Positions 16,655 through 25,624 of a DNA stretch of 64,000 nt are shown piece after piece. The notes beneath the pieces are model-generated. The model saw only the letters and a program-made list of their open reading frames with translations. It was not told the DNA's origin and did no database searches. The stretch lies in NCBI GenBank assembly GCA_019192445.1, contig JAHCMK010000005.1:186001-250000 (forward strand), written 5' to 3'. This stretch comes from Oceanococcus sp. HetDA_MAG_MS8 (lineage in GTDB: Bacteria > Pseudomonadota > Gammaproteobacteria > Nevskiales > Oceanococcaceae). The first letter of the stretch is position 1. Every line of letters begins with the position of its first letter. The position numbers and the translations under genes were made by a program.

Positions 16655-16669
16655 GCACCAAAATGGTGC
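16655..16669. promoter_or_regulatory. NtrC-type enhancer palindrome
   Basis: GCACC-AAAAT-GGTGC is an exact match to the core of the NtrC consensus (GCACC-N5-GGTGC). Its centre is about 120 bases upstream of the start predicted from the sigma-54 promoter at 16755-16771, the usual enhancer distance. A second dyad TTGTGC-gat-GCACAA lies just upstream (16634-16648). Confidence 0.7.
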
Positions 16670-16754
16670 GACCGCTCAGGGTCCCTAGCCATTGTGGTAC
16701 TCGCTGGCGCTTCACATCCTCGTATTGACGTGATTTGAACGCTGCTCGAGAAAA

Positions 16755-16771
16755 TTGGCACGGCGGTTGCT
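16755..16771 (+). promoter_or_regulatory. Sigma-54 (RpoN) promoter
   Basis: TTGGCACGGCGGTTGCT matches the -24/-12 consensus TTGGCACG-N4-TTGCT at every defined position, with GG and GC ten bases apart. It predicts transcription start near 16782, giving a leader of about 100 bases before the outer-membrane protein gene at 16885. Confidence 0.85.
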
Positions 16772-16884
16772 TTATCCCTTTTGCCAGACCTGCACGTCCC
16801 TTGGCGGCGGCAGGTATTGCGTGCGGCCCAGGGTCGTAAAGGCTGGTGATTCCTTCAACAAAGATCATTACAGAGGACATCACT

Positions 16885-17628
16885 ATGTCGATCGTATCTG
16901 CGCGGCTGGCTAAGGCCGCACTCGCGATGACCGTCACCGGCCTTTCCAGTGTAGCCACCGTTGCCCCCGCTCAAGAGCTGATGGTTCCAGAGAGCTCTTA
17001 CACGGTGATGCTCAACCAGGATAGCTTCTTCGGTTTTTACCCCTCTTTTAACGGCCTGATGGCGTTGTCCGAGAATATGGACTTCTCCTTCTACGGTATT
17101 TTCTGGACCACGCCTGACTTCGCCAGCAACGCCCCCGGTGGTGCTGACCTCTGGACTGAGTTCGGCGCTGGTGTGAACCTGAAGTACATGGATGGCAAGC
17201 TGAATGTGAAGCCACAACTGGGCATCACCAACGGTGTGCTGCAATCTGGCCCATCCGATGGTGCAGGCAACTTTGGCGACGGTATCGTCCCCAGCTTGAC
17301 CATCAACTACTCGGATGATTACTTCGAACTCGAGTCGTACAACGGTTACTACATCGCCACTGCGGATAGCGACGGTAACGACTTCCTCCACTTGTGGATC
17401 AACGGTGGTTACAAGTTCGCCGATTTCGCATCAGGCGGTCTGCACTATGAGTGGTTAGACATTCCTAGTGCGGATGGCGATACCGTTCTCTACAAGTGGT
17501 TCGGTCCTTACGTGCAGTTCAGCGTGGACTCCGGCTTGTTCGCCCGCTTCACTGCTGGCTCCCAGATCGATGCTGCTGGCGGCGAAGAAGGTGACTTCTA
17601 CAAGCTGAACGTTGGGATGTCCTTCTAA
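16885..17628 (+). CDS. Putative outer-membrane beta-barrel protein, sigma-54/NtrC-controlled
   Basis: 247 aa with a cleavable signal peptide (LAKAALAMTVTGLSSVATVAPAQA-type, cut after about residue 30). The mature part is rich in alternating aromatic strands (NMDFSFYGIFWTTPDF, KWFGPYVQFSVD) and ends in Phe (LNVGMSF), the hallmark of BAM-assembled barrels. It may belong to the uncharacterised DUF6733 group, recalled without search. I start at the ATG at 16885 with AGAGGA upstream; an in-frame start at 16846 would put 13 residues before the signal. The promoter region suggests expression in nitrogen limitation. Possible channel or porin-like role. Confidence 0.8.
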   Translation: MSIVSARLAKAALAMTVTGLSSVATVAPAQELMVPESSYTVMLNQDSFFGFYPSFNGLMALSENMDFSFYGIFWTTPDFASNAPGGADLWTEFGAGVNLKYMDGKLNVKPQLGITNGVLQSGPSDGAGNFGDGIVPSLTINYSDDYFELESYNGYYIATADSDGNDFLHLWINGGYKFADFASGGLHYEWLDIPSADGDTVLYKWFGPYVQFSVDSGLFARFTAGSQIDAAGGEEGDFYKLNVGMSF

Positions 17629-18074: not shown

Positions 18075-18114
18075 GATGCAGCCGGAGCAGGGTTAACGAT
18101 GAGGAACGATGCGG

Positions 18115-19566
18115 ATGACGAGTGCAGATCTGGACCTGACAATTGCTCAATGGGATGACGAAGAGCGGGCGGCGGAGGCCATGGTTCCCCTGGTTGGTCA
18201 GCTTTACCGCAATCGCTCGGTAGAAGTCTCGGTATACGGGCAGTTACTGGTCAAGCGGGCGGTGAGTGACATCCTCAAGGCGCATGAATTCTCCCGCCAA
18301 GTAGAAGATGCAGCGATTCATCCCAGTGAGAGCCTAAAAATCGTTGAGCTTTTGGGGCGTATGCCAGTAGAGCGGGCGCATGTGGACGTGGGCAAGTTGG
18401 CGACGCGCTTTCGTAGTGCTGAGTCGGGCCTGACTCTGGAGGCCTTTTTGCAGGCCGAGTTAGCGCCGGCGCTAGAAGCCACCAAAGAAGACGCTCCGCA
18501 TGCCGAACAAAAAGATGTGGTGCTATTCGGCTTCGGTCGTATCGGCCGTATCGTGGCGCGTCTGCTTTGCGATCGCCCCGGCAGCCAACATGGGGCACGG
18601 CTGCGCGCCATCGTAGTCCGCAAAGGCAAGGGCGATGATCTGGAAAAGCGGGCCAGCCTATTGCGCTTCGATTCCGTACATGGACCCTTCAAAGGCATCA
18701 TTGACGTAGATCGTGAAAATCAGGCCATGATCATTAATGGCCAACGGGTGCAGGTGATCTATGCCGATAAACCAGAAGCCGTGGACTACGCAGCTCACGG
18801 TATTTCCGGGGCTGTATTGGTCGATAACACCGGGGCGTGGCGTGACGAGGAAGGCCTCAGTCGGCACCTGAGCTCCGGAGCCATTTCCCAGGTTGTGCTC
18901 ACCGCCCCTGGCAAAGGCGACCTAAAAAATATCGTTCACGGCCTTAATCAGGACATGATTGCCGCCGACGATCAGATCATTTCCGCAGCATCCTGCACCA
19001 CCAACGCCATCGCGCCCGTGCTCAAAGCCATCAATGACAAGTACGGCATTGTGAGCGGCCATATGGAGACGGTGCACTCCTACACGAATGACCAGAACCT
19101 GATTGATAACTATCACGGTGCCAATCGTCGCGGACGCAGTGCACCGCTGAATATGGTGCTGACCGAAACCGGAGCCACCAAGGCGGTCGGCAAGGCATTG
19201 CCGGAACTGGTTGGGAAGTTAACGGGGTCCTCTGTGCGGGTGCCAACGGCAAACGTTTCCTTGGCCGTGTTGTCCTTGAACCTAGAGGGCAGCCCGAGCA
19301 CGGAGGAATTGAACGACTACCTGCGTCATATGGCCATGCACTCAGAACTGCAAAAACAAATTGGCTTCTCCAAGGCGGCTGATGCGGTATCCAGCGACTT
19401 CGTGGGCATGCGTAGCACTGGGGTTGTCGATGGCCCAGCAACGCAAACGGCACCGAACCGCTGCGTGGTGTATGTGTGGTACGACAATGAGTTCGGCTAC
19501 ACCTGTCAGGTGGTGCGGATCCTGCGCCAGCTCACGCACAGCACCTTGCGGGTGTTCCCGAGTTAA
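18115..19566 (+). CDS. gap: Glyceraldehyde-3-phosphate dehydrogenase, long N-terminally extended form
   Basis: 483 aa. About 130 N-terminal residues (AMVPLVGQLYRNRSVEVSVY, VKRAVSDILKAHEF) precede a complete GAPDH domain, as in the long Gap proteins of Pseudomonas. The Rossmann motif is VLFGFGRIGRIVARLL, the catalytic Cys lies in SAASCTTNAIAPVLKAI, and the C-terminal WYDNEFGYTCQVVRI is conserved. It oxidises or, in gluconeogenesis, reduces triose phosphate; cofactor choice cannot be read safely. GAGGA (18101-18105) favours the ATG at 18115 (spacing nine), although the ATG at 18109 is in frame. Leader hairpins suggest regulation. Confidence 0.93.
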   Translation: MTSADLDLTIAQWDDEERAAEAMVPLVGQLYRNRSVEVSVYGQLLVKRAVSDILKAHEFSRQVEDAAIHPSESLKIVELLGRMPVERAHVDVGKLATRFRSAESGLTLEAFLQAELAPALEATKEDAPHAEQKDVVLFGFGRIGRIVARLLCDRPGSQHGARLRAIVVRKGKGDDLEKRASLLRFDSVHGPFKGIIDVDRENQAMIINGQRVQVIYADKPEAVDYAAHGISGAVLVDNTGAWRDEEGLSRHLSSGAISQVVLTAPGKGDLKNIVHGLNQDMIAADDQIISAASCTTNAIAPVLKAINDKYGIVSGHMETVHSYTNDQNLIDNYHGANRRGRSAPLNMVLTETGATKAVGKALPELVGKLTGSSVRVPTANVSLAVLSLNLEGSPSTEELNDYLRHMAMHSELQKQIGFSKAADAVSSDFVGMRSTGVVDGPATQTAPNRCVVYVWYDNEFGYTCQVVRILRQLTHSTLRVFPS

Positions 19567-24692: not shown

Positions 24693-25424
24693 TTAAGGGT
24701 TCAGATCGAAATCGACCGAGTAGGACACGACAAATTTGAAGTCGTCGTTGCTCAGCCCAGGGGAGCCCTGAGAACCGGTAGATTCGTCTTCTTCGATATC
24801 GGTTTTGCTGACCATCAACCCGAAGCCATTTTTGGCGATGGTAACGTTGTAGTCCATGTACCCTTCGATGCCGTTGAAGGCTTCTACGAAATCACCGTCG
24901 TGACTACCCACGTGGAAGGAGATTCCGAGACCATTGGCCGTTTCAAAGCCGTAGTCCAGCGACAAGTAGGTGGCTTCGCCAGCTCCAAAGTCTTGGCCGG
25001 GGCCTTCTGCAGCTTCGGTATTCGTCAACACGTAAGCGGTAGCACTCAAGCCACCCATGCCTAGGCTGAAGTACACCTCACCAAAGTCAAAGTTGGTGTC
25101 GTTATCGTAGTTGTAATACAGGTAACCAACATCCCAAGCGACGGTGTCACCGCCGGAGAGGCCGAAGTACAGATCGTGCTCGTAAGAGTAGTTATCGTCG
25201 GCACCGTACTGCACGTTGGAAATCCAGGTGCCAGCGTAGAAGCCTGATTCGTGAGCGTAGTCCATGCCGCCCGAAACAGATGCTTCGTTAGTGGTTTGCG
25301 TGAGGCCGCGCCATACGTAGTTGTTGTTGACCGTTAAGTTACCACTTAACTCGGCCATGGCTGATCCACTGACCGCCACCCCCGCGATCAAAGCTGCTTG
25401 TGCAAAGCGCTTGCTATTCATCAT
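24693..25424 (-). CDS. TIGR02001/Gcw_chp family outer-membrane protein (TorF-like putative porin)
   Basis: 243 aa with a signal peptide ending in GSAMAE. The mature sequence begins LSGNLTVNNNYVWRGLTQTT and contains GGMDYAHESGFYAGTWISNVQ, the family signature, followed by amphipathic aromatic strands. In many proteobacteria relatives lie beside glnK-amtB, which links them to nitrogen metabolism (recalled, not searched). The upstream sigma-54-like promoter and NtrC-like palindrome fit that link. Transport substrate unknown. The ATG at 25424 or the adjacent one at 25421 may be used. Confidence 0.9.
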   Translation of the reverse strand: MMNSKRFAQAALIAGVAVSGSAMAELSGNLTVNNNYVWRGLTQTTNEASVSGGMDYAHESGFYAGTWISNVQYGADDNYSYEHDLYFGLSGGDTVAWDVGYLYYNYDNDTNFDFGEVYFSLGMGGLSATAYVLTNTEAAEGPGQDFGAGEATYLSLDYGFETANGLGISFHVGSHDGDFVEAFNGIEGYMDYNVTIAKNGFGLMVSKTDIEEDESTGSQGSPGLSNDDFKFVVSYSVDFDLNP

Positions 25425-25609: not shown

Positions 25610-25624
25610 GCACCAGAATGGGGC
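25610..25624. promoter_or_regulatory. NtrC-like enhancer site
   Basis: GCACC-AGAAT-GGGGC differs from the NtrC core palindrome by one base. It is centred about 130 bases upstream of the predicted start of the TIGR02001 gene and shares GCACCAnAATGG with the site at 16655. Confidence 0.5.

Follow-up and report, generated by a model that had tools for sequence, protein, structure and literature searches.

An outer-membrane barrel gene of Oceanococcus sp. HetDA_MAG_MS8 raises the question of why a protein family without a described function should stand behind what looks like a nitrogen-responsive promoter. The gene lies in a 64-kb window, the whole stretch of 64,000 nucleotides that was analysed, and a sequence-only reading had predicted that it is induced under nitrogen limitation and helps to take up a nitrogen source. 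The features concerned are listed in Table 1.

Table 1. Predicted features of the barrel gene and its upstream region, in window coordinates.
Feature	Position	Strand	Remarks
NtrC-box palindrome GCACCAAAATGGTGC, predicted enhancer	16655..16669	.	centre at about -120
Sigma-54 (-24/-12) promoter TTGGCACGGCGGTTGCT	16755..16771	+	consensus match, orthologue conservation
Predicted 5' leader, ~103 nt	16782..16884	+	start inferred from the sigma-54 element
Ribosome-binding site AGAGGA	near 16871	+	in the leader, upstream of the ATG at 16885
DUF6733 (PF20507) gene, 247 aa	16885..17628	+	signal peptide and 12-strand outer-membrane beta-barrel, ending in Phe

The sigma-54 element shows zero mismatches to the consensus TTGGCACGNNNNTTGCT and exactly follows the TGGCACG-N4-TTGCW rule, with its GG and GC ten bases apart; the earlier claim of an RpoN match at every defined position was right, coordinates included. 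The runner-up matches in the window carry two mismatches. All genome-wide statistics given here are pattern searches, and in the 3,529,516-bp genome exact TTGGCACGN4TTGCW was recovered at 3 places, this site being one. Neither of the other two has an exact NtrC palindrome close by; one stands before a gene whose large product has a weak VPS10-like match, and the other (C1:221310) is without a clear target gene. Within the 250 bp before the ATG the sigma-54 score beats all 2000 dinucleotide shuffles, as does the NtrC score within the 150 bp above the sigma-54 site.

The published NtrC core consensus is TGCACCAnnnTGGTGCA (PMC8743547). Compared with the E. coli NtrC box (T)GCACCAnnnTGGTGC(A), the palindrome is exact over its 15-bp core and unmatched at the outermost T and A. 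It is located 101 bp above the sigma-54 promoter, from which transcription is predicted to start at about 16782, so that both the core site and the spacing previously proposed for it hold. The palindrome is the single exact case of GCACCN5GGTGC within the window. Genome-wide there are nine, against 8 expected from composition, which is about the chance number, and the loose palindrome alone is thus not significant. The GCACCANNNTGGTGC form, however, accounts for two of the nine, with 0.35 expected. Besides the present one, just one GCACCAN3TGGTGC occurs, ~400 bp upstream of the glnK-amtB promoter, an unusual distance; the remaining seven palindromes fall within long open reading frames.

The genome encodes both regulators, with rpoN at C5:267942 (440 bits) and ntrC (687 bits) adjoining glnA and an ntrB-like gene in the order glnA, ntrB-like, ntrC. 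A second rpoN copy appears to be split between two contig ends (C12:2-994 and C10:97378-97650), and the C10 contig also carries flagellar flhA/flhB-like genes. The glnA promoter consists of a sigma-54 site, TGGCATGTTTCCTGCT, and, immediately above it, four NtrC-type sites, three of them spaced 13 bp apart, and glnK has a sigma-54 site, TGGCACGGTTGGTGCT, 89 bp ahead of its start. Since both promoters use the same parts, the architecture between 16655 and 16771 is the organism's own nitrogen-promoter architecture. The same design recurs at the glnK promoters of three DUF6733-bearing gammaproteobacterial genomes, as exemplified by GCACCAAGATGGTGC 69 bp above TGGCACGAATGCTGCT, and E. coli glnA and glnK-amtB likewise have a TGGCAC-N5-TTGC promoter with an upstream box of the same kind. 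What differs from known NtrC/RpoN promoters is the target, here an outer-membrane barrel, and one good NtrC box was found in front of it, whereas glnA has its run of four. Elsewhere in the genome, five of the 34 strict sigma-54 sites cluster within 17 kb (C11:27878-45125) near a pqqB-like gene, with an NtrC-like activator gene close by at C11:18939.

DUF6733 is rare and patchy in its occurrence. It was found in 1 of 61 nearest relatives (the genome itself), 2 of 369 genomes of the class sample, 1 of 398 of the phylum sample and 3 of 296 in the order of a Steroidobacteraceae carrier. A scan of a genome collection with a two-sequence alignment as query recovered 31 loci labelled Alphaproteobacteria, Gammaproteobacteria, Acidobacteria, Gemmataceae, Cytophagales and one Verrucomicrobia bin; the collection scan with a single DUF6733 protein as query gave no match, and a plasmid search found none. 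Five gammaproteobacterial orthologues from three orders, 53-57% identical, were available for comparison: that of the window, L023, L025 (same genome as L017), L026 and L133.

All five have a sigma-54 site no more than 250 bp before the start (TGGCACGGCGGTTGCT, TGGCACGGGTCGTGCA, TGGCATAGCCTTTGCC, TGGCACGCGACGTGCA and TGGCACGGGATTTGCA), each with p<=0.001 against dinucleotide shuffles. A matrix trained on this genome's glnA/glnK sites alone was then applied to the 150 bp above each sigma-54 site, and the best NtrC-like sites had p values of 0.0005, 0.016, 0.0005, 0.009 and 0.051, the last being that of L133. In four of the five species an NtrC-like box thus stands above chance, 67-101 bp above the sigma-54 site, though imperfect in L023, L025 and L026; in L133 the box (GGTCCGCCATGGTGC, 79 bp above the promoter) holds little beyond a half-site. 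The upstream DNA is otherwise unalignable, the -24 box being the word that recurs between most pairs, while L023 and L133 also have the NtrC half-site CATGGTGCA in common.

Outside the Gammaproteobacteria, a convincing sigma-54 site is absent in 27 of 28 DUF6733 loci; the Verrucomicrobia-bin orthologue has TGGCACAGCGGCTGCT upstream. Absence of rpoN was considered as the cause in the alphaproteobacteria and rejected, nearly all of them carrying the gene, which is present in 24 of the 26 genomes of non-gammaproteobacterial loci without a site. As most of these loci lack the site despite having rpoN, sigma-54 control is lineage-specific rather than universal, and looks like a gammaproteobacterial trait. 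The pair of sites is conserved at orthologues within the Gammaproteobacteria (p<0.02 for the four NtrC-like boxes) and was not seen in the alphaproteobacteria. A group of Erythrobacteraceae/Blastomonas loci (L028-L033, L035, L048 and L024) has its own conserved leader, GGAACG...GGAGCGTTCC(N2)ATG, before the predicted DUF6733 ATG, in which an inverted repeat surrounds the ribosome-binding site and suggests control at the level of translation; a TGCAACACAA element farther upstream is conserved as well.

The predicted nitrogen regulation draws support from the conserved site pair, from the RpoN and NtrC genes of the genome and from the shared architecture of glnA and glnK, and the DUF6733 gene probably belongs to the nitrogen-limitation (Ntr) regulon, under NtrC and sigma-54 control. 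Gene neighbourhoods add a line of evidence that is independent of promoters. PII and AmtB genes occur within 6 kb of DUF6733 at 5 of the 31 loci, namely in Kordiimonas (L019), Sphingomonas UBA1000 (L021) and three Acidobacteria (L038-L040), the latter with glnD as well; these three are close relatives and therefore count as one or two events. In L021 the genes form a glnK-amtB-DUF6733 tandem on one strand, with 170 bp from amtB to DUF6733, and L038 has the order DUF6733-amtB-glnK-glnD, again on one strand. In L019, DUF6733 lies 2.2 kb from glnK with opposing genes intervening. Recurring in other classes and phyla, this adjacency speaks for a nitrogen role in several phyla and strengthens the nitrogen-uptake reading. 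Promoter logic and gene neighbourhood thus tie the family to GlnK-AmtB independently of each other. The window gene has no adjacent nitrogen gene. The neighbouring downstream GAPDH gene (18109-19566) encodes a ~130-residue N-terminal extension, and the best GAPDH matches in near relatives do not cover it and are only 36-40% identical, a level at which synteny in near relatives is uninformative.

The product had been described as an uncharacterised outer-membrane barrel, and rightly so. It matches Pfam DUF6733 over nearly its full length (E 5.9e-66, 222.8 bits against a gathering cut-off of 27); the Pfam search returned no other family, and in the literature searched no paper naming DUF6733 or PF20507 was found. 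The predicted structure (pLDDT 83, pTM 0.76) comprises a signal-peptide helix and 12 strands. A PDB sequence search gave no relative of solved structure. The KdgM-type porins (KdgM, NanC, VhGalP), which are solute-specific and have 12 strands like the model, show no detectable sequence relation to DUF6733, with 7-15% identity in structural alignment. When strand faces were assigned on the model via hydrophobicity, the polar, predicted inner face was much better conserved than the lipid-facing one (mean entropy 0.87 vs 1.56, p 8.5e-6). Invariant or nearly invariant on it are W90, E92, E148, Y156, H169, W171, H187, E189, Y203, W205, Y209, Q211, R221 and K240. A lumen lined with conserved residues, as predicted here, would fit a selective channel better than a general pore.

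A precedent exists in the porin BCAL3473 of Burkholderia cenocepacia, which is raised on nitrogen depletion, has sigma-54-like promoter elements and promotes growth on amines, for which it is needed, and on amino acids; it differs in the extended spacer of its sigma-54 site and in being controlled by a small RNA (PMC10117139). The likeness to DUF6733 considered here is one of description and regulation. The kind of system is accordingly already known, and the DUF6733 family is new to it.

From the sites, their conservation, the regulators present, the predicted fold and the AmtB/PII neighbourhoods, all established by computation, we infer induction, control by NtrC rather than another enhancer-binding protein, channel activity and the kind of substrate. 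When nitrogen is short, phosphorylated NtrC would bind the palindrome at 16655 and, via DNA looping, open the RpoN-RNA polymerase bound at 16755, so that the barrel would be produced together with glnA and glnK-amtB. Most likely the barrel forms a narrow channel of 12 strands whose polar and aromatic inner face is conserved, and it may pass a small nitrogen-containing solute (ammonium, an amine, an amino acid or an amino-sugar-type compound) across the outer membrane, to feed inner-membrane uptake. This uptake function is somewhat more likely than not. It would give a concrete, testable role to a family without a described function, which is a good candidate to define the poorly defined outer-membrane step of nitrogen scavenging.

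Alternatively, the promoter could be nitrogen-regulated and the barrel be an envelope-remodelling, secretion, enzymatic or structural protein rather than an uptake channel, a reading that we consider possible and clearly the less probable. The structural aligner also gave high Z to the beta domains of intimin and invasin and to FapF, with OMPLA-type 12-strand enzymes lower down. However, the best full-length matches among solved folds are the solute porins KdgM, GalP and NanC (Z 16-18), the model shows a barrel alone, with no passenger domain, and the pairing with amtB points to acquisition.

It is unlikely that the sigma-54 promoter is real and serves a different enhancer-binding protein and signal, the palindrome being incidental. 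Besides ntrC, the genome has genes for at least four NtrC-like activators, and among the orthologues uniform strength is limited to the sigma-54 site, the NtrC box being degenerate or imperfect in all but the window. Against this, the palindrome fits the published NtrC core (PMC8743547), the matrix trained on glnA and glnK places sites above chance at the expected distance in four of five species, and DUF6733 adjoins PII/AmtB elsewhere.

Coincidence of the motifs, with transcription of the gene starting at an ordinary promoter or running on from the DUF1513 gene, is very improbable. Loose palindromes do occur at background frequency, and the DUF1513 gene ends 37 bp before the palindrome; yet sigma-54 sites of such score are expected 0.0003-0.0025 times per 250-bp region and were found in five of five gammaproteobacteria, and a promoter scan gave no sigma-70-type match on the gene's strand between 16500 and 17900. 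Equally improbable is that GCACCAAAATGGTGC is the terminator hairpin of the DUF1513 gene, a reading rejected because, although a 6-bp stem with a 3-nt loop could form shortly past the stop codon, GACCGCTCAG follows it without a U-run and the terminator scan makes no call.

DUF6733 might be a dedicated outer-membrane partner of GlnK-AmtB, that is, a narrow ammonium or small-amine channel used in several phyla under nitrogen stress, controlled by sigma-54/NtrC in Gammaproteobacteria and by operon linkage or otherwise elsewhere. We offer this only tentatively. BBP2 (PF07642), and perhaps TorF, would then be analogues. BBP2 is a different family that shares the amtB-glnK-glnD region with DUF6733 in two Acidobacteria: in L039 and L040 a BBP2 beta-barrel porin gene lies beside these genes on the opposite strand. 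A literature search on amtB-linked porins found nothing specific. TorF/Gcw_chp (TIGR02001) is likewise a different family, with a TorF gene 7 kb from DUF6733 in the window. DUF6733 gave no match to the TIGR02001 and PF09694 profiles, and homology to the window TorF barrel was rejected (hhalign probability 0.3%). No sigma-54 site was found upstream of this TorF gene (24693-25424, minus strand); a one-mismatch NtrC-like box, GCACCAGAATGGGGC, is located ~185 bp upstream of it, at 25610-25624.
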